From Tetmemena sp. SeJ-2015 (Eukaryota > Ciliophora > Spirotrichea > Sporadotrichida > Oxytrichidae), in assembly GCA_027382625.1 (NCBI GenBank), contig JAJKFJ010022323.1, forward strand, positions 38,444-102,443: a stretch of 64,000 nucleotides of DNA, read 5' to 3'. The position numbers and the translations under genes are program-made. The notes below the pieces were generated by a model. It was given only the letters and a program-made list of their open reading frames with translations. It searched no databases and was not told where the DNA came from. This document shows, piece after piece, positions 2,058 through 34,035 of the stretch (positions are counted from its first letter, which is position 1; each line of letters starts with the position of its first letter).

Positions 2058-5000
2058 CCACGCAGATGAATAAATTTTGAACATCAATAAGAAAATATAG
2101 CAAAGGGAAGAAAAAAGTCAGTTTCGAGAAAATGAAAGCGTACATCAAAATGTGGATTAAGAAAACGTAGAAAAAGAGGAATAAATTAACATCAGTTATT
2201 AAGGGACTCAAGAAGATAATGGCGAAGAGAGTTAGAGTGAAGAAGATGAGAATCTATCTCGCTTAGATCTAAATGCAACAAGTAAGTCGCAATTTAATTA
2301 ATTAAGCTTTTAATTGGGGCAGACAGCTAAATCTATCAAGGGAGAAGATTTGGGCGTGAGTTCTATGATTCCTGCAGCTCTTCCACTTTATAATCTTAGA
2401 ACTTAGGGAAACGTTCTAGAGCCAGAGATTAAGTAAGCTTTAAAAATATGAGTTAATCTTTTTTTAATATCACATAATTACGATTTGAGAATCCTGAGTT
2501 TAATTTTATTCCCATTTTAGGTATAAGGTAAACAGGATGAATAAGAATAAGAGGAATGACGCAGTTCAAGGAGATGATAGCAACCTACTAAAGAGAAACG
2601 CATGTAAACATGCAAAAGTGAAAGACTATTAATGTCAGGAGTGTTTTAATTACATCCCGATGTTCAAGAGTATATTCGATACGGTAACGTACAATTAACT
2701 TTTAAATTTAAATCTAAATGTACTGACCTATCTCAACATAAAATACATCAATGAGTTTTAAGACCAAGTATCTTTAAAATAATAAGGTATTGATTTAAAA
2801 ATTTATCTAACAATAATATGGGATCGCTTAAGGGAAAGGCAATTTTGATTTATGAAAATTACAAGCCAAAAAATACTTAAGAGATGAGAGAGTATATCCT
2901 CTATACGATCGATAAATCCTTAAAGCAGTATAAAAAGCAAGGATTTCAGAATTAAATTAAACCTTTTAATTTTAGGACTTTTAACTAAGCCTCTATAGAG
3001 GCTGATGGGGTAAATCGGTAATTATAAGCATCTCAGCTCAGAATTGAAGAATTATCTTTATGTTAGAAAGCAAAGAGAGTATAATGTACTTAGCAACGAC
3101 AGTCAAAATAGCCAGAATGACGTAACTGAATCTCAAAAATAAGAGAACCAGTTTATAATTAACATATTTTACCCAAATTTAAAGAATATTATAACTCTGT
3201 AGGTCCACACTGTCTTCTCTTCGATTCTTTTTTCGAATGTGGAAATCTGGAGAAAGCTGAATATGTATCTCCAACTGAATACAACTTATACTTAAACGTG
3301 GATACCAACACAAAGGGTCATCAGTAATGGTTTTATTTCAAGGTGAAGAATACTTTCAAAGATAAGAAGTACACTTTTAACATCAGAAATTTTACGAAAC
3401 CCTTTACTCTTTACCGATCTGGTATGAAGATTATGATGAAATCTAAAAAGCATTAAGAGGAATCAGAGGGAGGCGATGCAAATGATGAGGAGCGAACTAG
3501 AGATAAAGGTTTCTTAAAATCTAACGATGGATGGGTTCCAGCAGGAGAGGAAATTTAGTATTGGAAAACTGATATTTAGAGAAGTGGCTGGAGGATACCA
3601 GGCCCAATAAATATGGATGATGAGGAAGATGATGATCAAATATTAGATGACATTAATGGGATAGATGGAGGAGCGGGATTGCAAGCGGCAAATAACCCTC
3701 AAGATAGTGTCAAGAAAAGGGTAAGCAAAATAAGCGCATAGCTAAACTAGGCAGGCAATAATTAGAACTAGTCAAATTAAAAGAGAAGAAAGCGATATTT
3801 CTATTGCCTCACTTTCCAGGTTGAATTTGATTACGATGATGATGTTGTATACTTTGCTTATTCCACTCCATACTCATATTCACGAATCTATCTAGAGCTT
3901 TTGAATTTCGAGCAATATCTTATTGAGAGCGATTCAAAAAATGGGAAGGAAGATTAAAGCAAAGTTGTTGAGTCTAATGATCTATTTGAAAGATCAATTC
4001 TTACTAAAGACGTTTTATACGAGAGAAATCTTCTGTGTAGATCGATTAGTGGACTCCCAATTCCAAAAATATCAATAACTGCTAGAAAAAGTAAGGGTAT
4101 AGAATTTAAAAAGAGGCAAGCTGTAGCAATAACGGCTAGAGTACATCCTGGAGAAACAAATTCCAACTTTGTCTTCGATGGGTTCCTTAATTTCTTGACT
4201 ACTTAGGAAGGGATGAATCAACTTTTGGAGAATTATTTATTCAAGGTTGTGCCTTGCTTGAACCCAGATGGGAACGTTTGCGGAAATTATCGTTCATCCT
4301 TGGCAGGTGTAGACTTGAATAGATAGTGGATATTACCTAACAAAGATTTGCATCCTTCAGTATTTCATTTCAAAGAAATCCTAAGCTAAGTTTCCAGAGA
4401 CAGATAAATCCTTGTTTACTGCGACCTATTTAAATATCTATGAAAAGTTACTTTTTTAATCCTTTATAACCTTCATTGCCACTCAAAGAAAAAGAATTCT
4501 TTATATATGGATGTAACACAGCGGCAAATGGAGGATTTACAAGTTGGACAAAAGTTAGGCTTTTACCTCGAATTTTAGCAAGATAGACAGCTTTATTCAA
4601 TCTGAAAGACTGCAGATTTAGAATTGACCCAAGTAAGCTAGGTACAGCTAGAGTGATTGTTTGGAAGGAATTCGCAGTTACAAACTCTTTTACTCTGGAA
4701 AATTCTTTTTACGGTTATAGTTTTGGGGTTTAGAAAGAAACTCACCTTTTCAAGCCTTCTGATTATATGATGATTGGTGAAAGTCTGGGGCGATCGATTA
4801 TTCAATATAAGATCTTACTGAAGCAAATTGAAAAGGAGCTTGCACTAACTAATGGTTGGCTTAAACCTAAACTGCTTTTAGAAGTTACTGGAACCCCTGC
4901 TGCTGAGAAGATTCAAGGAAATCAATTTTTTCCTTCTTAGCTTATTATAGATTGCCAATGAATAGGCAAAAAAATTGAAGGAGGAAAAGAGGAATAGACA

Positions 5001-17226: not shown

Positions 17227-17733
17227 TGTGGATCCAGTTGTGAATTAGTGAAGTCAATAAATTGAGAAAGAATTCTTCTTACTTGGTTGAAGGGGTAGTT
17301 TGCATACTCTAGAGTGTGCTCATGTCCGTTGAGGTAAGTTTCAAGCTTACTATATACTCTTTCATGTGGTAAGTCCAAACTATTGAAGTGTCGTTGTCCC
17401 AAGCATTCATTGTATCTACCATCCACTCGAACATTACGTTTCCAAGTGCAGTAATCTTAGGGTCACCGCAGGTAACATCCATCAGTCTTTTCTTACAAAA
17501 TAAGCACCTGTTCCATTTGGATAGGAGTAGTTTGCGCAAAGAGCAATCATATTAAAATTTCACTTCATTTACTTTCCATTGCCGATGTCAAACTTCTAGG
17601 AGTAGTATTGATTGGGCATATATATTTCCAAATGTTTTAAAGCTAATTTCATCTAACCGCATAGATAGTTTTGTTTTTCAATCTTCGCAAAAAAGAAGTC
17701 GATCTGATTTCTAGGATCAGTCTTATTGCTGAT
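17227..17733 (-). other. Inverted even-numbered MDSs (2-14) of phosphatase copy 1
   Basis: Seven gene segments on the minus strand, in order from right to left: MDS2 17695-17733, MDS4 17652-17674, MDS6 17572-17621, MDS8 17505-17546, MDS10 17374-17491, MDS12 17281-17336, MDS14 17227-17253. Pointers linking them to the plus-strand pieces: 1/2 ATCAGCAATA, 2/3 GACTTC, 3/4 ACAAA, 4/5 TTAGA, 5/6 ATATGCCCAA, 6/7 CAATGGAAAG, 7/8 TTGCTCTTTG, 8/9 GAACAGGTG, 9/10 AAAAGACT, 10/11 ATAGTTTGGA, 11/12 TACCTCAA, 12/13 AACCAAGT, 13/14 CTTCA, 14/15 AACTGGATCCACA. MDS4 is only 23 bp including both pointers. Read alone, this stretch looks like a broken phosphatase on the wrong strand. Confidence 0.94.
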
Positions 17734-18978
17734 TAAACTAAAATTTATTTGAATAAAGTGTTGAATTCTGGATATGAACTATAATTTTTATTAGTATTGA
17801 TCTATCTAATAAAGAAAATGAATATTTCTAAGCTTCAAAGCCTAACGCTAGCTTCGGTATTGAGCGTAGTTGGAATCGCATCACTAGCTAAAGCAGATAA
17901 AGTAGGAATAGATTTCTTCATGGTTGGTGACTATGGGTGGGTGCAAGATCTCTCTGACTCAGTAGTGACTTTCAACAAAATGAATGACATCATCAGCAAT
18001 ATAATGAATATGATGAGGATTTAGACTTCATGATGACTATGGGAGACAATCTCTATCCAAAGGATTCCAAAAATCCTACTGACGAAGAGTTTGATCAAAT
18101 GATGGGTCTCTTTAACACCAGAGACAATTTGAAAGACAAATTTACATTAGAGGAAACCACGACTGCTACTTTGATATAAACAAGGAGGTTGAGCTCGGCA
18201 AGAGATATCCTAATTGGAATATGCCCAACTTAACAATGGAAAGAAATTTGGAGTCCTTTTTGTTGACTCATGCCTTGCTCTTTGATGTTTAGTAAGAACA
18301 GGTGGCCACTTGTTGATGTCATCAGAATTCGCTTCTCCTGAGGTTAAAAGACTATTGACACAGATATAAGAAAGCTTTAACTATTATAACTCTATAGTTT
18401 GGAAGGCAACTGTGCAGCATCATCCCCTCTTTGGAAAATGGTACCAAGACTATCAGACATCTCGTGACTGACTATCTACCTCTAATGCTTCAACACAAAT
18501 TTGACTTCTACCTCAAACGAAATTAAAAACCAAGTGTCTTTGATGAACTAAACTATGGAAAAGCATGAACCTAAGGGCAGGCTTCAAGATTATCAGTGCC
18601 TTGGTAACTAAGAGCTTTTGTATGGATCTACCTCTAGATACTCTGAGTATCAGAAGGGATTCGGCCTTCATAATTTAAAGAACTGGATCCACAGGATATG
18701 ATCTGTATAAAATTTGCCCAGCCCTTCCCTCAATCAATAGATTGTATTCTCTGAGTTAAATTAGCATAGTAATTGATTGAATGGGCAGATATAAATACGC
18801 TTAAAACGTGTACCATGGCTTCTCGCAAGTCCATGTTGACGAGCATGAGTTCACTGTGAAGATGCTTGGAGTAAATGAGACATCAAATGAGCTTCTTGAG
18901 CTTTACAAGGTGACTGTGCTCAATCCTGCTACTAAGGATTAACAACTCAAGAATCACACCCTTCCTGTCTATGAATGA
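17227..18978 (+). CDS. Scrambled metallophosphatase (purple/tartrate-resistant acid phosphatase type), copy 1
   Basis: Secreted or lysosomal-type acid phosphatase. It has a signal peptide (residues 1 to about 27) and all five metal-binding blocks of the purple acid phosphatase fold: FMVGDYG, MGDNLYP, RGNHDCYF, VQHHPLFGKW and NGHEHTL. In the germline it is in pieces. Odd-numbered MDSs lie in order on the plus strand: 1 17818-18001, 3 18024-18140, 5 18147-18228, 7 18234-18284, 9 18296-18353, 11 18394-18516, 13 18528-18670, 15 18681-18734, 16 18780-18978. Even MDSs 2-14 lie inverted at 17227-17733. Each junction has an identical pointer of 5-13 bp (3 bp at 15/16). Joined lengths sum to 1246 nt; one extra A near 18457 (CAGACATC where copy 2 has CAGCATC) explains the remainder and leaves 414 codons plus TGA. 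The GHEH block is encoded entirely in an inverted segment. Confidence 0.95.
18735..18782 (+). other. IES 15/16 of phosphatase copy 1, pointer AAT
   Basis: AAT at 18732-18734 and 18780-18782. Removal joins CPALPS to MGRYKYAQN, matching copy 2, which has an IES with the same pointer at the same place. Confidence 0.85.
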
Positions 18979-19011
18979 GTAAAAGCTCTTAACTTTAAAC
19001 CTATATCGAAA

Positions 19012-19450
19012 TTATTTGTCATTTTTATTCCTCAAATAAATAAAGGTATCTATCTTCCATCTTGGAGGTAAGTAAGTTTCTATCAGGAAGAGGCTTGTTA
19101 TTCTGTTCAGATTAAATATAAACCATATAAAGGCAGTCCACAAAATAAGGGTTAATAATTTGATAAAATTGCAACTAAAATTATGAACGGAAGAAATAAT
19201 AACGTTATCGATGTCTATATTGGGCCTTACGAGCTTTACCAAGAGAGAGCTAAAAGCAAATTCCCTCACAATAGATATTCAATAGATATTTCTTCTTCTC
19301 TCTATTATAGAGTTACATTAGCTTTGATGGATGATGGGGTCGTGCAAGTAAGATACTATGAAGACAGCAGATTCCTCTCTCAATAAAAATTAAAGCCCAT
19401 GGGCAATAAATTCAATTAAACTAATCGAGTATGCTAAATTTTTACATGAT
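19012..19450 (+). CDS. Unidentified open segment
   Basis: A continuous TGA-only frame from about 19030 to TGA near 19450, containing SVQIKYKPYKGSPQNKG, VIDVYIGPYELYQ and YYRVTLALMDDGVVQVRYY. Alternating hydrophobic and polar residues suggest a beta-rich domain. No upstream ATG is obvious before 19183. It sits between phosphatase copy 1 and ligase copy 1 on the same strand and could be a separate small gene or an extra 5' segment of the ligase gene. Not recognised. Confidence 0.35.
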
Positions 19451-19470
19451 TAAATAGTGGTGTTCCTGAG

Positions 19471-20844
19471 ATGGCTGATTTAGAAAAAGCTCTAAAAGAT
19501 TTTAGAACCGAGGGCTTTGTAGACAAGTAAGAATTAGAAGAAAGAAAATAGGAGTAGAAATAAAAAAGAGAGGCCGCTAAATAGCTGAAGAACGTCTAAG
19601 TAGGGCAAAAGAGATCAGCTGCTAATAGAGATTCCTCAGTTTCTAGTCAGTAGTCTGATTAGGACCTCAAGAAGAGAAAGGCTTCTGACCTTGGGAACAT
19701 TTTAAAGTATGCTCTTTAAATTTTAAACGGCAAGTCTGATCAGAAAAATATTTCAGCATCAGCCAGCTAGAGCTAGGCAGCAAGTGGAAAGTCAACTGCA
19801 GATAAGTCTCAAGAAGAGGAAAAGAAGTGAAGAAGAGAGAGGTGAAAGAAGAAGAAAAGAAGCAACTCTATTTAGAGCCCAGAAGATCAGAGAGAAATGT
19901 AGGCAAAGATTAGATAGACTATGACATTGATAAGATCTTAGATGCAGCTGATGCTACTCTCGGAAATTAGTTGCTTTATTAAATGGCGATCCAATGGAAG
20001 ATGACAAAGCTGGAGGAGGATGTATCAACGTAATGTTGGCTTAGACTTATGATCCTGAGAAGCATAATCCTGCAGGCTGGTTAATGTCTGAGAAGTTAGA
20101 TGGAGTTCGCTGCTACTGGAATGGCTCTGCCATGTATACTCGCAACAAGCATATCTTTTACCCTCCCGATTGGTTCAAGAAGCAGCTTCCTAGCAATCTT
20201 TGTCTAGATGGAGAGCTGTGGACAAAAAGAGGTGACTTCTAAAAGATTGTGAGTATTGTAAGGAGACAGGATAAGAATGAAGAATGGAAGAGCATAAAGT
20301 ACATGGTCTATGATGCTCCTAAGGTAAAGGGCTCTTTATAATTATATTGCACATTTAAGCAGAGACTAAAGAAAATGCATGATGTGATTGATAAGCTTAA
20401 CTCGCAGCATGTTATGGTGCATCCTCATCACGAATGTAAAGACTTCGAACACTTAACTTAGGAACTTGATAAAGTCACAGCTGACGGTGGCGAAGGAATG
20501 ATGATCAAAGATCCTAATTCTCTCTACGAAGGGAGAAGATCTGAGTTTCTTCTTAAAGTTAAGAAATTCGATGATGCAGAAGTTAGATATTATTTTTTGA
20601 CTGTATTTCAGAGGCGACAGTTACTGGACACAAAAAGGGTACTGGAAGGTGCAGCGGGATGATGGGAGCAATATTTGTAACTGATGATAATGGTATTGAA
20701 TTTAAAATTGGATCAGGATTTAACGATGCTCAGAGAATGAAGCCACCCAAGATTGGGAGCAGAGTTACTTTCAAATATATGGGCAAAAGTAATTCAGGCA
20801 AACCTCGTTTCCCAATTTTTATGAGAGTGCATCCAGGCATGTGA
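19471..20844 (+). CDS. ATP-dependent DNA ligase, minimal type, copy 1
   Basis: Seals nicks using an enzyme-AMP intermediate. After a Lys/Glu/Gln/Ser-rich N-terminal extension (19471-19960) come the nucleotidyltransferase motifs: catalytic lysine in SEKLDGVRCYW, LDGELWTKRGDF (motif III), IKYMVYDAPK (IIIa), DGGEGMMIKDP (IV), FLLKVKKF (V). The OB-fold domain ends the protein (IGSGFND, PPKIGSRVTFKYMGKSN, PRFPIFMRVHPGM). This is the compact ligase plan without DNA-binding or BRCT domains. Start is the ATG at 19471; end is TGA at 20842. One IES is certain (20581-20612) and two are likely. Frame slips near 19830 and 19970 in the linker are unresolved. It has a paralogue at 24104-25156. Confidence 0.85.
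19707..19727 (+). other. Probable IES, 21 bp, pointer ATTTTAAA
   Basis: ATTTTAAA at 19699-19706 and 19720-19727. Removal gives DLGNILNGKSDQ in frame. The insert has no stop and is a multiple of three, so it could also be coding. Confidence 0.5.
20333..20350 (+). other. Possible IES, 18 bp, pointer GC
   Basis: GC at 20331-20332 and 20349-20350. Removal gives DAPKVKGTFKQRLKKM, close to the spacing in ligase copy 2. The pointer is only 2 bp and the insert is in frame, so support is limited. Confidence 0.4.
20581..20612 (+). other. IES, 32 bp, pointer CAGA
   Basis: CAGA at 20577-20580 and 20609-20612. Removal restores KKFDDAEATVTGHKKG; ligase copy 2 reads KKFEDAEATIIAHEPG with no insert. The insert looks like GTTAG..TTTCAG, but splicing there leaves an extra base and breaks the frame, whereas pointer excision does not. 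Confidence 0.87.
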
Positions 20845-21367
20845 TTGTAAATATAAAAAAATTAGAGTAAAGAAACTAGCTTAATTATAAATATAACTCA
20901 CCAAATTACTTATCTAAAAGAGATCATCAACATAAAATACATGCAATATACTATAAAAATACAATTTTTGATTTACTTAGTATAAATAAGCTTTTTTTCT
21001 TGATAAAAATTGTTATAATTTTAAAACTCAAAATTTATCTTTTTTTAAAAACCCCATATTTTTAAAATTTTAAAAAAATTTTTGGGGTTCTTATTTTAAC
21101 TTATAAAAAATTTAATAAAATTTAATTTTTTTTTTTAATTTAAAAAAATTTTGAAAAAGGGTTTAAATTTTTTTAATATAAATCCCTTTTAAAAATACTT
21201 TTATTTATAATAAATTTAAAAAATTTTTTTATAAAATTTAAAAGTTGAATGAAAAGCTTAAATAAATTGAAATATACTTATAGATGATAAATACTTTAGT
21301 TACCAAGCTTATGCTTATATTACTCATTATATTTATATACTATAGCGCATGTGTGATATGTATATTT
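20845..21367. other. AT-rich non-coding stretch with telomere-like inverted patch
   Basis: Downstream of ligase copy 1. Around 21045-21095 AACCCC and GGGGTT face each other across an A/T tract. Long A and T runs to 21250 look like weakly determined sequence. No gene seen. Confidence 0.4.
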
Positions 21368-21870
21368 TCAAGCTGCGATGAGCACTTAAGCTCTCTGAGG
21401 ACTTGCAGGAGCAGATTATTATTTTTATCTGAGGAGAATCATTGACTTTCCTACAAATCTACTCTTATTTCTTAAACTGATGGGCGAGAGTGGTTCTGAA
21501 GCCTGAGCTTTAGAGAGCGATTTAGGAGAAGCAATCTTAAGACTCTTTACTCTGCTCTTGAGAATATTGGTAGCATTTCTGGTTGATTTAAATCTTCTGT
21601 CCTTAATTAAATTAAAAAGTGAATTAATTTAATCTGGGTCTTTGCTTGCAAAAGGAGGATATCTAGTTTGTCCAATATTCCCTTGCTTAAGATTAGAGTC
21701 TTCTTGCTTCGTAATGAGGGGAGGCCTAATGTTTTAATGGTCTTCTCTAATTTGGAAGTTCTTGGTTGCTTAAATTTATTGATAGTCCTGCTCCTCAAGC
21801 TGAGCATCACTCTTCTTAGAGGAGCTCCGTAGGTAATGGATGATTAGGTTTAGGCATTCATGTTCTTCAT
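21368..21870 (-). CDS. Unidentified small Ser/Lys/Gln-rich protein
   Basis: On the minus strand an ATG at 21870 starts MKNMNAQTQSSITYGAPLRR. One frame change near 21795 then gives a TGA-only open frame (SDAQLEEQDYQQIQATKNF .. SLKIASPKSLSKAQASEPL .. SAPASPQRAQ) ending at TGA 21368-21370. Serine-proline pairs and basic residues suggest a disordered phosphoprotein. No counterpart is seen beside phosphatase copy 1. Not recognised. Confidence 0.4.
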
Positions 21871-22163
21871 GTTTTGAGTTGGAGTATAGTGTTGTGTGTG
21901 TGAGATCAGAAACTATTGTTTGATTAATTTAAAATTATAAGCAGACTTGGGTTTATATAGTCAAATTAAAATCTGATCAATATACTGGTCTCCAACAACT
22001 TATTTCTAATTCCCTAATCTATCATATTTATCCAAACTACCATGAATTTCTTAATGTCAAATCTTAGAATTTAACATTACTGCTTTTATAAAGGAAATAA
22101 TTACAGATTGTTTAAGCCAGTTGAGCCACTTGTGAATTGATGAATTACTTATATTATAGTATA

Positions 22164-22518
22164 GGTAGTTTGCATACTCGAGAGTGCATTATATTATGTG
22201 ATAGCCTTCCAAACTATTTTGGGATCAGCTTCCCATGCGATCATAGTTTAGTTAATCCAATCAAACATAGCGTTCCCTTGAGCTGTCACCACAGGGTCTC
22301 CGCAAGTAACATCTTTAAGTCATCATATTATCATTATAGTTGACCGCCAGTGCCATTTGCATAAGAAAAGTTTGAGCAGAGAGCTAGGCATGAACAAATT
22401 CTTACTTTTTGTTTACTCCAATTTCAAATAGCCAACTATATAATACTACAAAACTCTGACAGCGTAAATTGTCTTGCTAATAAAAGAGCAAATCTATGTT
22501 ATTCCTAGGGTCACTCTG
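22164..22518 (-). other. Inverted even-numbered MDSs (2-12) of phosphatase copy 2
   Basis: Minus-strand segments, right to left: MDS2 22490-22518, MDS4 22454-22478, MDS6 22407-22432, MDS8 22338-22390, MDS10 22204-22321, MDS12 22164-22186. Pointers: 1/2 CAGAGTGACC, 2/3 ATAGATTT, 3/4 AGCAAGA, 4/5 TCAGAG, 5/6 GCTATTTGAA, 6/7 CAAAA, 7/8 TGCCT, 8/9 GTCAACT, 9/10 GACTTA, 10/11 GGAAGGC, 11/12 CACTCT, 12/13 AACTACC. Segment boundaries fall at nearly the same protein positions as in copy 1, but none of the pointer sequences is the same. Confidence 0.94.
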
Positions 22519-23871
22519 AATTAGATATAGCCGATAATAAGATAGATATATCCATATTTAATAAAAATAATAATTTTAGAGAGTTAAATGAGACTAAATA
22601 GCACAAGGCAAACTCTTTTGGTACTTTCTTTGATAGGAATTGTAGCAAGTGCCGAATCTGCTCCTAAAGATAAGAAAGTAGGAATAGATTTCTTCATGGT
22701 TGGAGATTATGGGTATATTGGCGACATGTCACCTGCTTACTTGACTTTTAACAAGATGGACGATATTATTGATGACCAGAGTGACCAAAGGAGCCATAAA
22801 TAATTTATAGATTTCATGATGACTATGGGAGATAATTTATATCCCTTTTCAGACTCAAAGAATCCATCAGACGCTGAATTCGATGTGATGATGAGTCTCT
22901 TTACTCAAAGGGATAACCTCAAGAGCAAGATATAATCTTTCTTATTCAGAGGAAATCATGACTGCTATTTTGATCAGCAAAAGGAAATAGATCTTGGAAA
23001 AAGATACAGCAACTGGAACATGCCCAGTCTCTACTATTCGAAGCTATTTGAATATCTTTTTAACTTTTTATCAAAACGTTTGGTGTGCTCTTCATAGATT
23101 CCTGCCTCCGTTATTTAATGAAACATTTTAATAGGAAACGAAAGTCAACTTTTGTCTGGGCATTTCGCCTCTTCAGAAATGAAAAGACTTAGAGATCACA
23201 TGATTTTAGAGAGTTGAGGAAGGCCACAGTTTAACATCATCCTCTTTTTGGAAAATGGTATCAGGATTATCAGCATCTTGTCACTGACTATCTTCCTTTG
23301 CATTTATTAATAAGTTATCTTAAAATTGCTCTTGCAACATAAATTTGACTTTTACTTGAATGGTCATGAACACACTCTTTAACTACCCATACGACTAAGT
23401 AAATTCATTATAAGAAGACATGGAGATCTTTACTCCCAAGGGTAAACTTTAGGATTATCAGTGCCTGCAAGGTCAGGAGCTGATGTATGGAAACTCTTCA
23501 AGGTTCCAATAATTCAACAAAGGAGAGGCTATTCATCAATTCACTATCCAAGGTATTCATCTTTATCTTTATTCAACTGGCTATGATCTTTATTCCATCT
23601 GCCCAGCTCTACCCTCAATCATTATATTTGAATTATCTTATTCTTTCTAATTAAAGTAGCTTAAATGGGAAGATACTACTATGCGTAGAATCAGTATCAC
23701 GGGTTCTCTCAAGTGCATGTGGATGAGAATGAGTTCACAGTTAAAATGCTTGGAGTAAATCAGACCACTAATGAGTTGATTGAACTCTACAAAGTTACAC
23801 TTATTAATCCTACAACCCCTCCTCCTCCTACTCCTCCTCCTACTCCTCCTCCCACAGAGGTTAAGGAATGA
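22164..23871 (+). CDS. Scrambled metallophosphatase, copy 2
   Basis: Paralogue of the phosphatase at 17227-18978 with the same five metal-binding blocks and a signal peptide (MRLNSTRQTLLVLSLIGIVA). It ends in a TPPP repeat tail absent from copy 1. Plus-strand MDSs: 1 22588-22786, 3 22807-22930, 5 22946-23052, 7 23072-23107, 9 23144-23191, 11 23218-23378 (with an IES inside), 13 23381-23871 (with an IES inside). Even MDSs 2-12 are inverted at 22164-22518. Joining by pointers and removing the two IESs gives 1281 nt, exactly 426 codons plus TGA, with no base corrected. GHEH is here on a plus-strand segment. A further 33-nt in-frame piece near 23546 (between two ACT) may be another IES. Confidence 0.95.
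23302..23329 (+). other. IES, 28 bp, pointer TTGC
   Basis: TTGC at 23298-23301 and 23326-23329. Removal gives TDYLPLLLQHKFDFYL; copy 1 reads DYLPLMLQHKFDFYL with no insert. Confidence 0.9.
23620..23666 (+). other. IES, 47 bp, pointer AAT
   Basis: AAT at 23617-23619 and 23664-23666. Removal joins CPALPS to MGRYYYAQNQYHGFS. Same position and same pointer as the last IES of copy 1. Confidence 0.87.
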
Positions 23872-24103
23872 AAGTAAATCATTTTATTCAACAAGAGATC
23901 ATATATTGACTTAAAATCATTCTTAACAAAGCTCTTCAATTATTTAATACTCCTAAAATATCCAAATTTTTGGAATTCAAAGTTATTTACTGGTTAAATA
24001 TGCATTCATTTTCTATTAAAATTATCAATAAATATTCGAGTAGTGTATAAAGTTGTCTCTAACAAATCTGAATGCAATTTAATTCAAAATATAGCATCTG
24101 AAA

Positions 24104-25156
24104 ATGAGCAAAAAGGAAAATAAAAAGTTAAATTTCGATGAAGATGAGAAATAAGAAAACGAATCCAGCCTTTCAATATCCTAAAATTCTAAGAAAATAA
24201 AAAAGGACAAAAAAGAAAAGAATTCATCTCAGAAAATTGAAATTGCTTCAACAGTATCTTCAAATTCAGTTTCTGCAAATACAACTCCTGCCAAAGAGAA
24301 GAAATAAAAAAAAGTTAATGCAAGTGCAAAGAAAAAGAATGACAAGCCAAAAGTAGAAAAACAAGAATCCATCAAGCTAACTGTGATGCTTGCTAATACA
24401 TACGATCCAGAAACACTTCCAGATCCTATAGGCTGGTTTTTATCTGAGAAATTAGATGGAGTCCGCTGCTATTGGGATGGAAAAGGGCATTTATACTCAA
24501 GGAATGGAAAATGCTTCTATCCACCCAAGTATTTCATAAAAGACTTTCCCCAAGGTTTTGAGTTAGATGGAGAACTTTGGACAAAGAGAGATGATTTTCA
24601 GAAATGCGTGAGTATTGTAAAAAGGCAAGATGAAAATGATGAATGGAAAGGACTTAAATATATGATATTTGATGCACCAGGTATGTAAGATCATGGTTTT
24701 AGGGAGAGATACTTAAAAATTAGGTATATCGTTGAGAAGTGCCAAAGTGAGTATCTAGTGCCTCTTGATCATAGAATTTGCAAAGGTAGAGAGCACTTAA
24801 TGGGTGAAATGGAAAAGGTTATCGCAGAGGGAGGAGAAGGAGTCATGCTGAGAGAGCCGAATAGTAAGTACGAGCGGAAGAGAAGCAACAATCTTCTCAA
24901 GGTGAAAAAATTTGAAGATGCCGAGGCAACAATTATCGCTCATGAGCCAGGTGAGGGAAGATTAGTGGGGCTTCTTGGAGCTATCAGAGTAAGAGAAGAT
25001 GATGGCAAGGAATTTAAAATTGGCAGTGGTTTTAATGATAAGCAAAGAGCTGATCCTCCAAAAATTGGGGCAAGAGTGACTTTTAAATTTATGGGTAGAA
25101 GCAACAAAGGTATTCCAAGGTTTCCTATTTACGTGAGAGAGCATCCCGGATTATGA
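24104..25156 (+). CDS. ATP-dependent DNA ligase, minimal type, copy 2
   Basis: A single uninterrupted frame of 350 residues plus TGA (25154-25156), from the ATG at 24104. Residues 1-90 are a Lys/Ser-rich disordered extension, probably nuclear-targeting. The catalytic domain follows with SEKLDGVRCYWDG (adenylated lysine), ELDGELWTKRDDF, LKYMIFDAPG, EGGEGVMLREP and LLKVKKF, then the OB fold (FKIGSGFND, PPKIGARVTFKFMGRSN, PRFPIYVREHPGL). Several TAA and TAG codons fall at ordinary positions and must be sense, which makes this the best proof of the genetic code in the window. It lacks all IESs seen or suspected in copy 1. Confidence 0.93.
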
Positions 25157-25467: not shown

Positions 25468-28400
25468 AAATTAACGAATGAGAAACCGAGAAAGAGCAAA
25501 TGTGAGGGAATGGGAGATCAATTTAAGAGTTTGGACTGGTTTGGTCAAACAGTACAGCTTACTTACAAAGGAGAAGATCAGTACAAGACTATAAATTATT
25601 TTTAGTTAATGACCTTAATAAATAGACTTTGATTGGCGCTGCTGTCTCAATTGTTCTAATCCTAATTCTATTTGGATTCGGAATCTTCAAAGCTTACTAC
25701 CTCTTCAGCAGATTTAATCCAGAAGTAGCTAAAGTCTCTTTGATGAGAGATATGTCAGACTTTTACAAATTAAAAAGTGCATTAATTTGCCATAAATATA
25801 GAGACGGCACTATATTTTAGCCATAATAAACCGGCTTTGACTTTGCGTTTGGCCTAAATTCCCAATTGGACCCTTCTTATGGATAGTTATTTAATTTTAA
25901 GAATGGCTTCTTCACAGTAAGATAGCTAGGAAGATATGAAACTGACAGGAGAGATTCTACTGGTAAAGCTATCTTCGACAAGACCACAAAGGATATTCCT
26001 TTTTAGAAGTGTGGAACTGATCTGTTCAATTACCCAGATTCAGCAGAAGTATAAAGTGTAGGTATATCAAACTATAACTGCATCACTTCATTTTTTCACT
26101 ATGATCGAATAATTGTTTAACAATCACTAATGATGACTACTAATTCCAAGGAAACTACTATCAAGAAAAATTTGAATATCTCGAACTTAAGTTTATACCT
26201 TATCATAATTATCAAAGATCTTATATAAGCTCTATAAATGCAAGAACATTACTAATGGAACTACAAATTCAGGAGCCAAGTGTCTAGATAAGGCCACTAT
26301 TGACGCCTATTTTGAGAAGGAGACATTCAACTTCGCATTTGTGAATAACTTCTTAGATCTTACGGAATTCGATGATGGAAAATAGATCAAGCCCTTTATA
26401 GATGATTAAATAAATGTCCATTTAATTCTAAATTTTTGCTGTTTTTAACCAAAACCAAATTTAAAAAAAGAAGGAAACTTTTAATAAGGTTAAAAACCCT
26501 AAACATTTGTTTATTTGGGGAAAATATTTTTTCCCTTTACAAACAAAAGGGTATGATGACGGTTACACCGAGACAGATGGTTATATAGCTGCCATTTATA
26601 TGCGCTTTGATAATAGATATGATAGCTTTAAAGTCAATTATAGTATTTATCTTTACTTAATGATCAGTACTCCCGCAAAGTGTACTCAATTCTAGAAAAT
26701 TTTTGTTTTTTTTGGGGGATTTATTTTTTATAAAGGGGGTATTGAATTTGATTTTTATTTAATCCAAACCGTTTGTTAAATGTTTTGATGGTAAGGTTAA
26801 AAAAACAAAAAACCCCAATCATTTCTTTAAATTAAAATTCTGAGGCGGGGATTTATTTAAACCGTCACGGTATTGGAAATCCCAAAGACGCCCCAGGTCC
26901 TTTTGCGGGATCTTCCCCCAAAATGTTCAAAGCAAGCCCCAGCGACCCTCAGTCTCAGGATGAAGGACTTGGGGTCCGCGATTAGCTCAAGTCTTCGTAT
27001 AGGACCACAGGGGGCATGAAAGTAAGAATGCAACAGCCAACCCCTCTACAGCAAGCCCCCCGGGTATCCCCGCTTCGCCATTTTCCCTACTCCGAAGCCT
27101 CGCGGGTATCTTGCTCCCTCCCCAGCTGCGAGGGCCCCCCAAACATACTCAATCCCCCACTGTGGTCTACCCGCAGTCCCCTTCGAGCAGCTCCCCCTCC
27201 ACCCTTCACTTCTAGACTATCCTCGAGGGCGACTTAACTATCAACGCTTTTTTCAGTCCCCGGGCCCCTCATAGTCGCTAAATTGGGAAAGGCCCCGCCC
27301 GGGTGGGGTTTTAAATGTCCCCAAAGGGAAAGGGGCTCCCTCTCTTGATTTGGGGGGCCTATGGAATCTGGGAAAATCGATGATCTGATTGTAACAGGGG
27401 GGATGCTCGACCCCTGATAGCTCGGAATTTTCCAGGCCCGGGTGGCACCCGAACCTCCCTTTTGCCCCACCCCTTCTATGGCGAAATCGAACGCTCCTAG
27501 ACGCCCATAGCTTTATCTCGTCAGCACGATGCAGCGTCCCCTTTCCACACAAGCCCTGCCCTCCTATGGCCTGGCCCCAATAACGAACGAGGGGAATGCT
27601 CTTTTTCAAGACATCCCCAGAGCTTTAAAAGACCCCAAAAGGGGAGTGAAGGGGGATCAAGCAGGCTCAACCTTATGTTTTCTCAAAGGGACTTGAAGAT
27701 GGGGAGACTGTTCCTTGCCGAGGACACCCGTACTTCTACCCCCGCGAGGGAAGTCAAGAAGAAGGGCCCCTGAGGGAAGGTTCTAAATTGTATACGGCAG
27801 TCATCGATGGCGTAGGGGTACCAGGGGTACGTGCACTCCATGTCAGCACCAGATGTCCGGCCTGCCGGGGGGGGGCCGACCGCCTTTTCCCATTGGATGC
27901 TGATGGCTGCTTCAAAAGCCTGAAAGAGGTGATCTAAAGAAATAAGGAAGGACTCAAGGACTCTCTCAACGATGATGCAGGGCGCATCCAGCTGCTTCTT
28001 TCATCGATTACACACAAAGTGAGAGACATCATAAGGTACCGCAGGAGGCAATTCTGCTTGACTATGCTAACCCATTACGCCAGAGGCTACGAACCGCGCC
28101 GCCGCTATGTCTTTGACCTCGGCGATGTCTTGGGGGGAGTTGATCTTATAGACATACCTGCAAGGCAGCGAATATTCAAGGTCACTATTAAGGAGGGAGG
28201 TGTGGTTGATAACGACCAGGCCAAGAGAGAGAGGCAAGCGCTCTATGAAGGTATCAATCTCTCTCATCGCACTGTGGACACTATTTCTCGATTCGTGCAT
28301 CTCTTGTGGGTGGCGAGCTAACGAGCATCTCTAAAACAGTATCGGGTGGAAGCGCTCCTGTATGTGGTGGACAACCTCGTAAGCTAATTAGAGGAGACAG

Positions 28401-31400
28401 CCAAGCCGTCTAGGAACAATAAGTTTATCTACCGCCTCATTGATGGCAGAAGGAGGAGGATGCGCAACGTCCACTTTGACAGCGTGTAGCCAGCACGTAA
28501 TCCCGAGAAGGTATCGTAGAGACTCTAAGTCATCCGAGATGGGATGGAGTGGATTGACTTTGTAACTAGGAGCACGAGGATAGTAAGGTGCTCCTTGGAG
28601 TAAAGCATTTACCACATCTGGAGCAACGCCCTCTACCAGCGCATACTAGCGAGGGATCAAGCCTCATAGAGCAATTTCAGCTTAGTGAGAAGGATAGGTA
28701 TAGATCAAGGACTTGAGATGATGTGCGCAGTTGTATACGTCGGTAATGATGCTCGACTCTTGGAGGGTTTATAACTTGGGATCTGAATATTCAGGAAAGA
28801 CTCGTTTGTGATAGACTACTATAAATCTTTCGTTGAGAGACGTTTGTAATTAATTTTCTATTTCTACATCTTGCGAATGATTGTGTATTACAACTTTGCT
28901 CCCGCCTTCGAAGACTAGGATAATTGATTGTTCAACTCATATATATTATGATGTCAGCTTGTGCCGTCTAGGTTCGGGATAAGGACAGCTACTTCGAGAT
29001 GTACTTACTCTAAATCAGGATGAGCAGGAGGGGAATATTATTTGGAGCCCTTCGATGACATAAGACATTGATTTCTTTGAGAAGGCTTCGAGAGGAGTAT
29101 ATGCTGCTTATTCAAAGTAGTCACTGGAGCTGCTACTAATCTGAAGGACCTGTGTCGGTCCATTTTACATAATCACAACAACAAGCTCACGAGTTGGCAC
29201 AGCCAGAATAATGAAACTAGCAGTCTACTATGGGCAGATTAACCCAATCGGCAGGGTGAAGGTGCGTATCCTTGCTCAGCAATGCGCATCTCGGGTGACT
29301 TCAGATGAAAGAGGGCAACCATAGTGACGACGAGTTGAGAGAGCAGTTGTTACTGAGTATGCTGGCCGCGGCACGATAAGAACGAGCGGTGCAAGGGCAA
29401 GGCTCCAACAGAGGAGAAGACAGTCATCCGCATCTTGAGATATACGATAAAAATTGGCGTGAGCTCGAAGATATTCACGAAGAATGAGCTCGAATAAGAC
29501 TCCGCGAAAGGAAGTTGAGCCACTGAATGTTGCGTTCTCGTATGGTCAAGTCCTCTCCATAAAGATCGTTTAAGGATCTGAGATTTACATGGCGCCGAAT
29601 GAACTGGCGCAGCATGGGCCTTTTCAATAAAGACTTTCCAATTGAGGGTAGTTTGTGAAGCGTTCGCTTTTAGTGTTCTGCCTACAATCTCGTGCTTGGA
29701 GAGAGAGTAGAGTCAGAGGTCCTCGTGATCAAGATATATTGACAGTGATTCTATCTACTGCTTTTGAAACGAGGTAGGTGCTGGACTGTTCTTTGGATCT
29801 TACTTTTTAAAGCAGTATTTATAAATGCGAGTGGATGCTGAATGACAAGAGATTCCGATTAGAACCAATCAGGTGCGCCCTCAGTAGTTGACTCGTCGAG
29901 TAAAGCGATAAGAGAAAGTATCTTGGAGAAGCAGAAATATACCTTTGAGGGTAAATGGATGAAATGCAGATTGAAATATTATATCTATTAGCATACTTAA
30001 TATAAATTGCATCCTACAGTTTTAATATAATTAAATATTCTCAGCCTTCCTCGGGGTTCTAATTATTATTTCCCCTTCTATTAATTTCTTATCTACTTGC
30101 TATGAAGAGTAATTCCTTTTAGAACAGGTGAGTACTTTCATCAAGAACAAGCAGGAGCTATATGAAGCCACACAGAGGAATGGCTTCTTCCTTCCAAAGG
30201 CCAAGAGTAAGGCGGTGACGGAGGAGTACTTGCTCAACGTGATCAGCGGCAAGGTGTGGTGTGCCAAGTATGAAGAGATAAGGTTACTGCCTAGTCCTCG
30301 CCCACCATCACTCGATGTTCTATTCGCGAAGCTAAGGGAGGTCAGCGTGCGCGATAAGAAGAACCTTGGCATAGACGAGCAGCACTTGCCAGATAGAGCG
30401 TGGAGCCTTGCGATGCTCTCCAATTCAAGCCAGCGGATCGAGATCTTCAGAAAGGCTAACGAGCCGCTGAGCAAGGGTTCAGGTCTGGACCGGCTACATA
30501 AGACCTGTGGGATCTTGCAGTGGTAGCTTACCCTCGAGGGTCTGCCCGTCTCCCAAGGCTAAGTCGAAATCTACAGAGGTCTCCTTCCTGACTCGAGCAA
30601 GCAGGTCGCTCATGTAAGCTTACCTACCGCCTCAAGGTTCAGAGGAGCGATAGATTTGAACACTAGGCTGATTGATAGTCGGAGAAGATAGGCTATGGAG
30701 GGAACCGGCGGAAGTAAGAAGCAGCAGCGTGGTCCGGCGGGCTGGTTCACTTCATGGGCGTATTTGCGGCAGGTCGGAAGGTCAACGATTGCGCGGCACG
30801 AGAGTAGAGAGCAAGTCCCCCCTCAAAGAGTGACTCCAGACACCGAGGTGGCCGCGAGGCGTGAATGAGTGACTTGGATTGTTGTGAGTTTAAGCGAGTT
30901 TTTAATCTTTATCTTTTAGCGTCATATCTTAATAACTGCGATGAGCCTTCTAAAGTGACCTAGGACGAGTGCGTGCTTGATCCAGAGATGGAGTTGATCC
31001 ACGAGAGACACGCGGCGGCTGCCACTCCTGCTTCTATGGCTCGCCCAAAGCCGCTCGATATCTTCGGGGTTGAAGGGTTGTCATACTGTTTTAGGGGGGT
31101 ATGATAGAGTGCTAGGTCTGCTCGCTCCGATGTGAAGAGGTCCTTTTACCTTTGGGCTCTTTTTGTGGACCAAAAGGGTTGTCCATATACGAAATGTGAT
31201 GCAGTCTGGTAGACGAGTGATTTCGAGAAGCTGTCGCATGAAGAGAATGAAGTGGCCAAGGTTGTTGTTGATTCCTGGAATAACGAGGTGGTGGGCCAGG
31301 CCACGTTGCGAACTGATGGTCTCCGAAATGACTGTGGCGGATGCGGTACTCGACTGTTTGGAATAGGCGACTGCCATTGGAGCGTTTTGAGCCAGGAACT

Positions 31401-34035
31401 TCCTCATGTCTGCCACCATAGTAGGGGAGACTCTCGTCACGATTGTATTAATTATAAGCAATCTCGCGGGCCTGCGTGCATTCTATTCTTCTGTGATTAA
31501 CTACAATGATAGTGCTACAATGCTGCTTTGTCTTGGAGCTCTGTGCGCTCATCTTCTGGCCCTTGTGGATGTAAGTGTATGAGCTGGATCGGTGTAGTAA
31601 ACCTCGTTGCGACGGAAGAGCTTGGCCAGCGTGGCCGGGCAGACAAGAGGGGCCCCAAAGTGCTCGTGGTAGTAGTGAGTCCGCTCCCTCAAGCTCATGT
31701 GGGCGGTCTCGCTGAGATGCTTCGCCGCGGTGATGCGCTCCTCGATCACTGTAGGGATTCTTCCCTCTGGCCTCTTGCATTTCTACTACTACGACTATAG
31801 ATATAAACGTTGCGGCGCCACCGGCTGGACTTCGATCATGGCGCACCGTGCTCGATTTTGATTCCCGTGGTCTCTTTGGCAACCTTGGTTTAAGATAGCT
31901 CATAAGGATTCGCGATCGTCGTCCCTGCTTCAATAAGTAGCCCAGTATCGGAGCTCAAGAATGGCAAGAAAAGGTTTGCTGGTCTGTTGATTAGCGTGTT
32001 GACCCTGGTCCTGAAGTTTGGGCCGAATAGTTTCTTGCATCTCTGGATAAGAGGTGCCTCATCAGCAAGCTCTCCATGTAATAGGAATGTAGGTTTTGGA
32101 GATTCGGACATAATGTACTGGTGGAGATGGCCTCCGAACAAATGCATTGCAGGGTCCAAGTCATCCTGAAGATATTCGTGGAGCTTCCTCTTGCGTTTTC
32201 TTGGAACCGTCTCCTCCATTTGTAACTTTATAAGTATCGAGACTGAATTAATTCACACTTATGATTACTTACTCAATACTCCTATAAATGAGCTATTAGG
32301 TGGTCTTTAGGGATCCCTTCTTGCAATTGGGTTTGTGTTTGTCGGCTTCATCTCTAGTCGTCTCTTTTACTTTACACTAAATGGATTATAATGATGAGTT
32401 TACTCAGATCTGATGCACAAAATATACCAAGTCAGAAAGTATGTGATGGAGCCTCTCAGCAAAGATTAGAAGAAGCTCCAAGAGCAATACGACAGGCAAA
32501 ATCATGATCTTGATTAGGGACCAGATGATGAAGGTAACGGCTCCGGAAAATTAAAGAAGAGGAATTTCAAAGAAGACGGCCCTGGTACTAATCTCAAATA
32601 AGACTCAAAAAGCAGCCACTAGAGAATGAACTCACTATCTGAGAGAAATTTTAAGTACATTTTTGTAATTAGAAAGATGCTAGGAACTAAGCTCTCACCG
32701 CCTCTTTAGGGAGACAACGAAAAGTACTCACTCAATCCTGATGAAATTCATGCTGAGTTTGAAGGAGCCACTCCTCCTAAAATGATAGCTGAAGAACAAG
32801 ATAGACAAGAAACTTAAGCTCTTCCGATCGAAGAAGATTAAAGTGTAATAAATTTTAAAGATATCAGACAGAGGGAGTACGCGCAGTCTTAAATATTCAA
32901 AACAAAGAAGAGAGTTAATGATTAAGATGCTGACAATCTACTACTGTCGTTTGTGTCTAGAATAATACAAATGCTTCAGTTGATAATTAAATAATGATGA
33001 ATGAGATTCAACTATGACGCTAGAGCTATTTGTTAGTACGTGAGTCAGTGTCTATGTGTAAGAAATCTAAGCAGCAAGCGCAACCTAAGGTACTACAAGA
33101 AGCATTATCTCTATCAAAAAGGAGAGGAAAAACTCAACCAAGAGCTTGATGTGATTTAGTTGGTTAAGACTTTGAGAAAATTCAAACTACTTGCTTAAGC
33201 CATGCTTTCATAGAACAATAAACCTCACCCTTTAAAATGCAAACCTCTTCTTCTTTATTGAAAAGTTTAGAATGCTGCTGAGATTTTAACGTCAGAACTT
33301 GCTTGAAACTGCCTCCGAATCTTCTGACTCCGATGACAACAACCTTGACACTATGAACTTAATGGAGAATCCCAACCCTCTAATTAGACTGGTTATTTAT
33401 GGAAAGCTTAAAAAGATGATGAAAGGTTTCGAAAGGAAGAAGTTAAAGTTTATCGAGCGTAATCTGATGAGAGGTGTTTTTCAGAGAAAGCTCAAAGATT
33501 TCTAAGAAGAGTAGCTAGACTAAGCCGAAAACAAGAGTCTTTTAGATCGCCTCAAAGCTTAGATGATTGAGAGCCATCAGCATTAAGAGCAGCAGTTAGA
33601 ATAAGATAACATGAAAATTTAATATATAATGATATGGTAGGAAATAAATGCATGTAAAGAAAGATTGGTATGGGTGATTCTTCCTCATAATTAATTTATC
33701 TCTAGCTAAATATTTCCAATGAAACTATTGAAGAAGGAGATATGAACGAATTCTAGACTACTAAACACTTGCAGTACAGCCCTAAAGGCTAGAAGGGTCA
33801 GAATTCTTAACTGATTGCATATGGACCTTAAATTCATGAATTCAATCCCTAGGAAAGAGAAGGGTCATACAAATAAAAAGGAATTACTCAAAGCGACTCA
33901 ATAGATCAGAGAGAAGAGAATAACTTGCCTAAGAAAGCGGCTTATGATTCAGAGAGGAGAAAGGCGTTTGATTTTAGCAACACTGATATTAAGCAAAATA
34001 GCAACACTCAAGTATTTTCTGAGAAAAATAACTGA
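25468..34035 (+). CDS. Membrane protein TM1 (ciliate two-helix family), split by a 5.6-kb element
   Basis: Largest of three paralogues. Exon 2 starts at 25468 (KLTNEKPRKSKCEGMG); a hydrophobic helix follows (IGAAVSIVLILILFGFGIF), then RFNPEVAKVS, GFDFAFGLNSQLDP, FFTVRQLGRYETD, a large Cys-containing extracytoplasmic region (DYQFQGNYYQEKFEYLELK), FVNNFLDLTEFDDGKQIKPF, and a second membrane segment encoded after the big insert (SLLAIGFVFVGFISSRLFY). The cytoplasmic tail (MHKIYQVRKYVMEP .. NPLIRLVIYGKLKKMM .. ERNLMRGVFQRKLKDF) ends at TGA 34033. At least ten IESs plus a 5587-bp insert at the codon pair SI/L must be removed. About 60 residues present in TM2 and TM3 (after KPFIDD) are missing or unreadable at 26406-26545. 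Biochemical function unknown. Confidence 0.8.
25591..25628 (+). other. IES, 38 bp, pointer AGACT (TM1)
   Basis: AGACT at 25586-25590 and 25624-25628. Removal gives DQYKTLIGAAVSIV. TM2 and TM3 carry IESs at the same spot. Confidence 0.9.
25761..25805 (+). other. IES, 45 bp, pointer AGAC (TM1)
   Basis: AGAC at 25757-25760 and 25802-25805. Removal gives RDMSDGTIFQPQQTGFDFAF; TM2 and TM3 are uninterrupted here. Confidence 0.9.
25883..25906 (+). other. IES, 24 bp, pointer ATGG (TM1)
   Basis: ATGG at 25879-25882 and 25903-25906. Removal gives LDPSYGFFTVRQ. The same position holds IESs in TM2 and TM3. Confidence 0.82.
26088..26128 (+). other. IES, 41 bp, pointer ATCACT (TM1)
   Basis: ATCACT at 26082-26087 and 26123-26128. 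Removal gives NYNCITNDDYQFQGNYY, matching TM2. Confidence 0.9.
26192..26229 (+). other. IES, 38 bp, pointer TAAG (TM1)
   Basis: TAAG at 26188-26191 and 26226-26229. Removal gives YLELKLYKCKNIT; TM2 and TM3 read YLELKLWKC. Confidence 0.9.
26406..26545 (+). other. Anomalous stretch replacing a conserved part of TM1
   Basis: Between KPFIDD and YDDGYTETDGY, where TM2 and TM3 encode about 60 residues (SLFFxLES .. KKANFY .. FHQV). Here there are A/T runs with CCAAAACC and TTTGGGGAAAA. A KKEGNF stretch near 26473 faintly echoes KKANFY. Either the segment lies elsewhere in the germline, or the sequence is poorly determined. Confidence 0.45.
26624..26664 (+). other. IES, 41 bp, pointer ATGAT (TM1)
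   Basis: ATGAT at 26619-26623 and 26660-26664. Removal gives RFDNRYDQYSRKVYSIL. Confidence 0.87.
27648..28786 (+). CDS. Transposon-borne ORF of unknown function, 379 codons
   Basis: Open from just after a TGA at 27645-27647 to TGA 28784-28786 when TAA/TAG are Gln. Arg- and Leu-rich, with a CPAC pair near residue 80 that could be half of a zinc ribbon, and stretches such as RYRRRQFCLTMLTHYARG and GGVDLIDIPARQRIFKV. Unlike the host genes it uses many G/C-ending codons. Upstream (27000-27640) is also open in places but compositionally odd. It could correspond to the largest ORF of a TBE-type element; no kinase or C2H2 motif was seen. Confidence 0.5.
28787..30100 (+). pseudogene. Broken open frames in the transposon middle
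   Basis: Short frames in changing phase (for example IFRKDSFVIDYYKSF, VRDKDSYFEMYLLQIRM, MKLAVYYGQINPIGRVKV), each closed by TGA. It looks like the continuation of the upstream ORF after frameshifts, from mutation or base errors. Confidence 0.35.
30128..30868 (+). CDS. Transposon-borne ORF, about 247 codons (possible TBE 22-kDa-type protein)
   Basis: Open from at least 30128 to TGA 30866-30868, using in-frame TAG and TAA as Gln. Contains FIKNKQELYEATQRNGFFLP, GKVWCAKYEEIRLLPSPRPP and DKKNLGIDEQHLPDRAW. A small ORF lying convergent to the transposase fits the three-gene plan of TBE elements, but the assignment rests on context. No ATG directly upstream; an intron or frameshift may hide the start. 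Confidence 0.45.
30922..32219 (-). CDS. Tc1/mariner-type (IS630 superfamily) transposase, frameshifted
   Basis: The start ATG is at 32219 (MEETVPRKRKRKLHEY). The N-terminal part ends in a likely helix-turn-helix (NPYELSQTKVAKETTGI). A second DNA-binding stretch follows (EERITAAKHLSETAHMSLRE, CPATLAKLFRRNEV). The DDE region shows VISETISSQRGLAHHLVIPG, FILFMRQLLE, then YMDNP and VHKKSPKVKG in adjacent frames, which fits the second Asp motif, and finally NPEDIERLWA with conserved spacing from the end (stop at 30922). At least three frame changes are needed, so the gene is decayed or the sequence has indels. Catalytic residues could not all be confirmed. Confidence 0.6.
32286..32296 (+). other. 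Very short IES, 11 bp, pointer CTAT (TM1)
   Basis: CTAT at 32282-32285 and 32293-32296. Removal gives SILLLGGLQGSLLAIG; without it the frame is lost. Confidence 0.7.
32371..32403 (+). other. IES, 33 bp, pointer TTTAC (TM1)
   Basis: TTTAC at 32366-32370 and 32399-32403. Removal gives SSRLFYSDLMHKIYQVRKY, identical to TM3 around the joint. TM2 has an IES at the same site with pointer GTCTC. Confidence 0.92.
32964..33002 (+). other. IES, 39 bp, pointer GAAT (TM1)
   Basis: GAAT at 32960-32963 and 32999-33002. Removal gives LLSFVSRMRFNYDARAI; TM2 and TM3 have no insert here. Confidence 0.9.
33620..33666 (+). other. IES, 47 bp, pointer ATT (TM1)
   Basis: ATT at 33617-33619 and 33664-33666. Removal joins DNMKI to GMGDSSSQ and continues open to the stop at 34033. 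Confidence 0.7.

Follow-up and report, generated by a model that had tools for sequence, protein, structure and literature searches.

Thousands of scrambled genes are known from hypotrich ciliates, so one more is unsurprising. Oxytricha has 5285 scrambled chromosomes, 29.2% of its chromosomes, according to the available part of one study (PMC10901763). The accessible text of another, on Oxytricha trifallax and Tetmemena (Feng et al. 2022, PMC9797194), gives the scrambled share of Tetmemena gene loci as 13.6%. There, odd and even segments lie in separate blocks, pointers are typically 2-20 bp, and junction positions are conserved in relatives while most pointer sequences differ. Odd/even patterns, inversions and kept junction positions with changed pointers are already published for orthologues in the same source, which also describes segment joining in Oxytricha as programmed by RNA templates, with a single pointer copy retained per junction. 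The locus described here, which we call copy 1, resembles these genes closely and belongs to a known kind, being a typical odd/even scrambled gene of hypotrichs with its even segments inverted.

Copy 1 is a purple acid phosphatase-like gene of 16 coding segments within positions 17227-18978 of the window (the whole stretch of DNA analysed, 64,000 nucleotides). Its odd segments ascend on the plus strand, and the even segments 2-14 follow in order on the minus strand, just upstream; at each scrambled junction an identical pointer ends segment n and starts segment n+1. The first-pass annotation had proposed these coordinates, the 16 segments and the inverted even block, and re-joining the raw sequence bore this out. 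We re-derived the segments in three ways, by a homology-free search, by a search guided by a Stylonychia lemnae protein and by direct re-joining, with both strands translated with TAA and TAG as glutamine. The homology-free search used codon usage and shared repeats only and was given which two blocks to use and their directions; the guided search compared the S. lemnae protein with both strands, leaving the order unconstrained. The segments (MDS), with the evidence for each, are as follows.

17818..18001, plus strand: MDS 1, ATG and GDYGW motif; 3' pointer ATCAGCAATA (homology-free and guided searches, re-joining)
17695..17733, minus strand: MDS 2, pointers ATCAGCAATA and GACTTC (homology-free and guided searches, re-joining)
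18024..18140, plus strand: MDS 3, GDNLY motif; pointers GACTTC and ACAAA or TTGAAA (guided search, re-joining; TTGAAA from the homology-free search)
17652..17674, minus strand: MDS 4, pointers ACAAA and TTAGA (guided search, re-joining)
18147..18228, plus strand: MDS 5, GNHD motif; pointers TTAGA and ATATGCCCAA (homology-free and guided searches, re-joining)
17572..17621, minus strand: MDS 6, pointers ATATGCCCAA and CAATGGAAAG (homology-free and guided searches, re-joining)
18234..18284, plus strand: MDS 7, pointers CAATGGAAAG and TTGCTCTTTG (homology-free and guided searches, re-joining)
17505..17546, minus strand: MDS 8, pointers TTGCTCTTTG and GAACAGGTG (homology-free search, re-joining)
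18296..18353, plus strand: MDS 9, pointers GAACAGGTG and AAAAGACT (homology-free search, re-joining)
17374..17491, minus strand: MDS 10, pointers AAAAGACT and ATAGTTTGGA (start from the homology-free search, end from the guided search, join by re-joining)
18394..18516, plus strand: MDS 11, QHHPLF motif, extra base near 18457; pointers ATAGTTTGGA and TACCTCAA (guided search, re-joining)
17281..17336, minus strand: MDS 12, GHEH motif; pointers TACCTCAA and AACCAAGT (homology-free and guided searches, re-joining)
18528..18670, plus strand: MDS 13, pointers AACCAAGT and CTTCA (guided search, re-joining)
17227..17253, minus strand: MDS 14, pointers CTTCA and AACTGGATCCACA (guided search, re-joining)
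18681..18734, plus strand: MDS 15, pointer AACTGGATCCACA, then the unscrambled AAT (guided search, re-joining; end by fit to S. lemnae)
18780..18978, plus strand: MDS 16, ends at the TGA stop; unscrambled join at a 3-bp AAT repeat (re-joining; start by fit to S. lemnae)

Re-joining confirmed an exact pointer of 5-13 bp at all 14 scrambled junctions, as had been claimed; in order, the repeats are 10, 6, 5, 5, 10, 10, 10, 9, 8, 10, 8, 8, 5 and 13 bp. Pointer 3 is the one ambiguous scrambled pointer that we encountered, since TTGAAA (homology-free search) and ACAAA (guided search) each keep the frame, and ACAAA is preferred by one S. lemnae residue. The join of MDS 15 to MDS 16 is an ordinary unscrambled one, for which AAT was picked by eye, since joining there gives PALPSMGRY as in the S. 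lemnae protein. The claim that the joins are in frame and continue the protein held for 14/14 scrambled junctions, with the reservation that after MDS 11 it does so only if one extra base (18457 or a neighbour) is skipped. The joined frame, with in-frame TAA and TAG read as glutamine, has 414 codons plus the stop (the 415 codons first reported include the stop) and a single break, which lies inside MDS 11 and at no junction.

This anatomy also bears on whether the segments might be joined not in DNA but at the RNA level, with two antisense transcripts being trans-spliced. The segments do lie on opposite strands, as such joining would have it. But exact repeats of 5-14 bases, one copy of which fits the frame, are characteristic of DNA pointers, and each scrambled junction has a repeat of its own; a constant splice signal was not seen. 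To our knowledge, no two antisense transcripts are joined at the RNA level in this manner, and we consider this explanation scarcely credible.

Neither search recovered the map in full. The homology-free search chained 18 joins and recovered 11/14 copy 1 pointers; 7 joins were absent from the final map. At junctions 3 and 13 it chose a different repeat, at junction 10 it used the repeat in reverse, and it made four further joins that we dropped, probably because an end in one frame was forced despite the extra base. The guided search recovered 12/14 pointers in copy 1 and 13/14 in a second copy described below, with plus segments ascending and minus segments descending. Not recovered were pointers 8 and 9 in copy 1 and pointer 8 in copy 2, and the search jumped wrongly where the S. 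lemnae guide diverges, in the guide's first ~40 residues and in the stretch after ALCANYSY. Pointers 8 and 9 of copy 1 therefore rest on the homology-free search, and pointer 8 of copy 2 comes from other than the guided search. As a control, we substituted for the minus block 18 blocks of equal length taken elsewhere in the window. The guided score of copy 1 was 1355.9 with the true minus block versus a mean of 1048.5 with the controls (sd 9.1, maximum 1065.5); for copy 2 it was 1289.4 versus 1126.1 (sd 7.4, maximum 1147.8). A random pair of plus and minus positions fell inside a shared run of at least 5 bases in 0.72% of 20,000 draws, compared with 14/14 junctions in copy 1. A chance origin of the copy 1 map is excluded.

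The joined product is likely a purple acid phosphatase, or calcineurin-like phosphoesterase, as predicted from its sequence. GDYG, GDNLY, GNHD, HHP and GHEH, which we take to be the five metal-binding motifs of purple acid phosphatase, are all present in the joined protein; GHEH was seen on the minus side only, in agreement with the initial claim that it is restricted to the inverted segments. A hand-joined draft of the protein matched the calcineurin-like phosphoesterase domain PF00149 at 2.7e-10 and six sequences of solved structure, all purple or tartrate-resistant acid phosphatases (best 5.2e-13). Among these, mammalian tartrate-resistant acid phosphatase (PDB 7ov8, 1ute) was matched by the draft at E 5e-13, with metal-binding motifs kept. 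There were 13 relatives among 2026 candidates from a collection of 5.8 billion proteins, and the best was the S. lemnae acid phosphatase P0001 (6e-162), which is encoded on a 1,569-base contig and was compared here as protein. Joined copy 1 is 62.4% identical to it (256/410) and joined copy 2 59.8% (247/413), figures that are not fully independent evidence because the S. lemnae protein guided the map. By eye, the N-terminus looks like a putative secretion signal.

Copy 2 is a tandem paralogue at 22115-23871, with the inverted block upstream of the plus block as in copy 1. It has 17 segments, with 14 scrambled joins at exact pointers of 5-14 bp and two unscrambled joins, and compared with copy 1 it carries an extra unscrambled spacer of 24 nt at 23302-23325. 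Its joined frame is unbroken for 419 codons after 16 joins.

22588-22786, 22807-22930, 22946-23052, 23072-23107 and 23144-23191, plus strand: copy 2 plus-side segments, within 22588..23871
23218-23301, 23326-23378, 23381-23544, 23573-23619 and 23664-23871, plus strand: copy 2 plus-side segments, continued, within 22588..23871
22518-22490, 22478-22454, 22432-22407, 22390-22338, 22321-22204, 22186-22164 and 22145-22115, minus strand: copy 2 inverted segments, within 22115..22518

After each phosphatase comes an open frame whose product has an ATP-dependent DNA ligase domain (19994-20590 and 24077-25153), so that 17227-25156 reads as a two-gene unit duplicated in tandem, phosphatase then ligase, twice. 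The best relative of the ligase is a EukProt entry (69%). The first ligase frame breaks at about 20590-20625; by eye, some 30 nt there have GT...AG ends and may represent either a small intron or an eliminated segment. Elsewhere in the window, an open plus-strand frame at 3298-4440 has a zinc carboxypeptidase (M14) domain. GC is raised (0.44-0.51) at 26000-32000, where neither of two reading frames tried matched Pfam; within it, 27800-29300 matches the assembly 25 times, counting itself, at 65-100% identity and so resembles a dispersed element. Both strands carry pieces of one protein family, recognised by the words YMRFDNRYD or MHKIYQVRKY (26372-26788 and 32413-32997 on plus, 38686-39511 and 51073-51651 on minus) and may be further multi-copy, possibly scrambled genes. 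No Rfam family matched within the window at gathering thresholds.

The two joined phosphatases are 69.7% identical (288/413), and all 14 scrambled junctions of copy 1 have in-order counterparts in copy 2. The 15 shared junctions are displaced between the copies by 7.0 nt on average and by 25 nt at most; random placement gives a mean of 37.6 nt, and the lowest of 20,000 draws was 9.4. When the copies are aligned, the pointers overlap at 11 of the 15 shared junctions, including 10 of the 14 scrambled ones. Not one of the 14 scrambled pointers is identical in sequence between the copies; the shared unscrambled AAT is. A false inversion of reads during assembly, for which the fragmentation of the assembly into 5213 contigs might speak, is extremely improbable as the source of the layout: the same 14 junctions recur in a paralogue that differs in sequence and in pointers, and breakpoints made in error would not be expected to fall at in-frame repeats and leave segments whose lengths, for copy 1 MDS 2-15, run from 23 to 143 bases.

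Could an inverted gene duplication have decayed into this layout, leaving two complementary halves of a pseudogene that are joined no more? We looked at how the copies have diverged. Between them, pS is 0.813, which puts silent sites near saturation, and pN is 0.208. Differences by codon position are in excess at third positions on both sides, with 86, 56 and 181 in 307 plus-side codons and 17, 16 and 53 in 96 minus-side codons (403/413 codons were used, the 10 that straddle a segment border being left out). The segments of both strands are thus shown to diverge as coding sequence does. Such divergence speaks against decay, as does copy 2, open for all 419 codons, and exact pointers and a kept frame at 14/14 junctions are not what decay would leave behind. 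What speaks for decay is the frame-breaking extra base in copy 1 and two further signals. The flanks past the pointers are slightly more alike than random (3.39 versus 2.94 matches of 11, reached in 1.3% of 5000 draws), and the lengths of even segments and of plus-strand gaps correlate in copy 2 (Spearman 0.89, n=7, p=0.007; in copy 1 0.47, n=7, p=0.29). On the minus side, the correlation of segment and gap lengths is 0.49 in copy 1 and 0.35 in copy 2, neither significant at n=6 each. The likeness of the flanks and the length correlation in copy 2 fit an origin by duplication, but the signals that scrambling arose from duplicated, decayed segments are weak, and we judge present-day decay very improbable. 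The spacers are AT-rich, with GC of 0.23 and 0.21 versus 0.41 and 0.40 for the segments. We set aside alignments of each spacer with its counterpart in the other copy, because they permit gaps in AT-rich pieces that differ in length.

The extra base near 18457 raises a narrower question, whether copy 1 has recently died and copy 2 is the working gene. Its joined frame does break there, whereas copy 2 stays open and the S. lemnae protein can be aligned over the site without a gap. However, pN is 0.209 before the break and 0.205 after it, and since the two are equal, the break is either very recent or a sequencing error. A recently dead copy 1 is an appreciable possibility, though we would sooner expect a living gene.

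We then searched the assembly (146 Mb, 5213 contigs) for the separate intact locus that the first-pass annotation had named as evidence against scrambling, and found none. No intact or somatic copy turned up in the assembly: the joined DNA matched only its own contig, at this locus and its paralogue, in pieces, and so did the S. lemnae protein. There were 44 matches to the broad phosphoesterase family at other loci in the assembly, and the S. lemnae protein matched none of these. Among the 67 listed matches to the C4A4 telomere repeat, C4A4C4A4C4 stands at base 1 of nine contigs, and a few somatic gene-sized chromosomes may contaminate the germline assembly; the C4A4 pattern is identical when reversed, so a reversed control is uninformative.

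Odd/even interleaving, exact pointers, in-frame joins, TAA and TAG as glutamine, AT-rich spacers and C4A4 repeats in the assembly all support the first reading of the locus as hypotrich germline scrambling. We are nearly certain that copy 1 is a germline (micronuclear) hypotrich purple acid phosphatase gene in 16 segments, with the even segments 2-14 inverted upstream, which is predicted to be unscrambled through paired 5-13 bp pointers in the developing somatic nucleus. Recombination between the paired pointers would unscramble it while the new somatic nucleus develops. By analogy with Oxytricha and relatives, template RNAs from the old nucleus would guide the joining, one copy of each pointer would be kept at the junctions, and telomere addition would yield a gene-sized chromosome. 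An odd/even inverted map of this kind can be read from germline DNA with just a relative's protein as guide.

The likeliest history of the pair is that a phosphatase-ligase unit, scrambled already, was duplicated in tandem; each copy then retained the map as its pointers slid and changed. This suggests, as a tentative idea that we would hold to be rather doubtful, that duplication can pass on a scrambling map as a unit and that such a map can outlive all of its scrambled pointers: the same 14 cuts would have been kept since before silent sites saturated, sliding by no more than 25 nt, and the changed pointers would serve as private address labels that stop cross-assembly of precursors about 70% identical. 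A pair with one map and no common scrambled pointer is a compact natural test of whether the information for rearrangement lies in position and template or in the pointer. As a tandem pair in one nucleus, it also tests how close paralogues avoid mixing.

Among the open-access papers listed, genome-wide tables of scrambled genes aside, we found no earlier account of a scrambled acid phosphatase; the only match concerned Tetrahymena genome evolution (PMC6564038, as far as its available text goes). Even so, the case for the locus being remarkable as a newly scrambled gene, made at first pass, is weak, given the scrambled share of Tetmemena loci cited at the outset and a calcineurin-like phosphoesterase of Oxytricha already drawn in 4 segments. 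That gene, compared across four ciliates in the accessible part of PMC10901763, shares with ours a broad domain name and germline fragmentation (4 segments in O. trifallax, 6 in Halteria); it is described as single-copy and less fragmented, and would count as no more than a possible orthologue. The actin I gene of S. lemnae (PMC2394655, available text) likewise combines inverted segments and pointers in a hypotrich germline and needs both inversion and translocation. But of its 10 segments only 1 and 2 are inverted, and three of its junctions are scrambled, whereas here the even segments 2-14 are all inverted. Among the orthologues of PMC9797194, 38.3% of Oxytricha and 30.9% of Tetmemena pointer positions are conserved by that study's own position test, as given in its accessible text; between the paralogues described here, matched by order, 14/14 are, 10 of them overlapping. 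What is new is that the pattern extends to paralogues in one genome, with all scrambled junctions kept.
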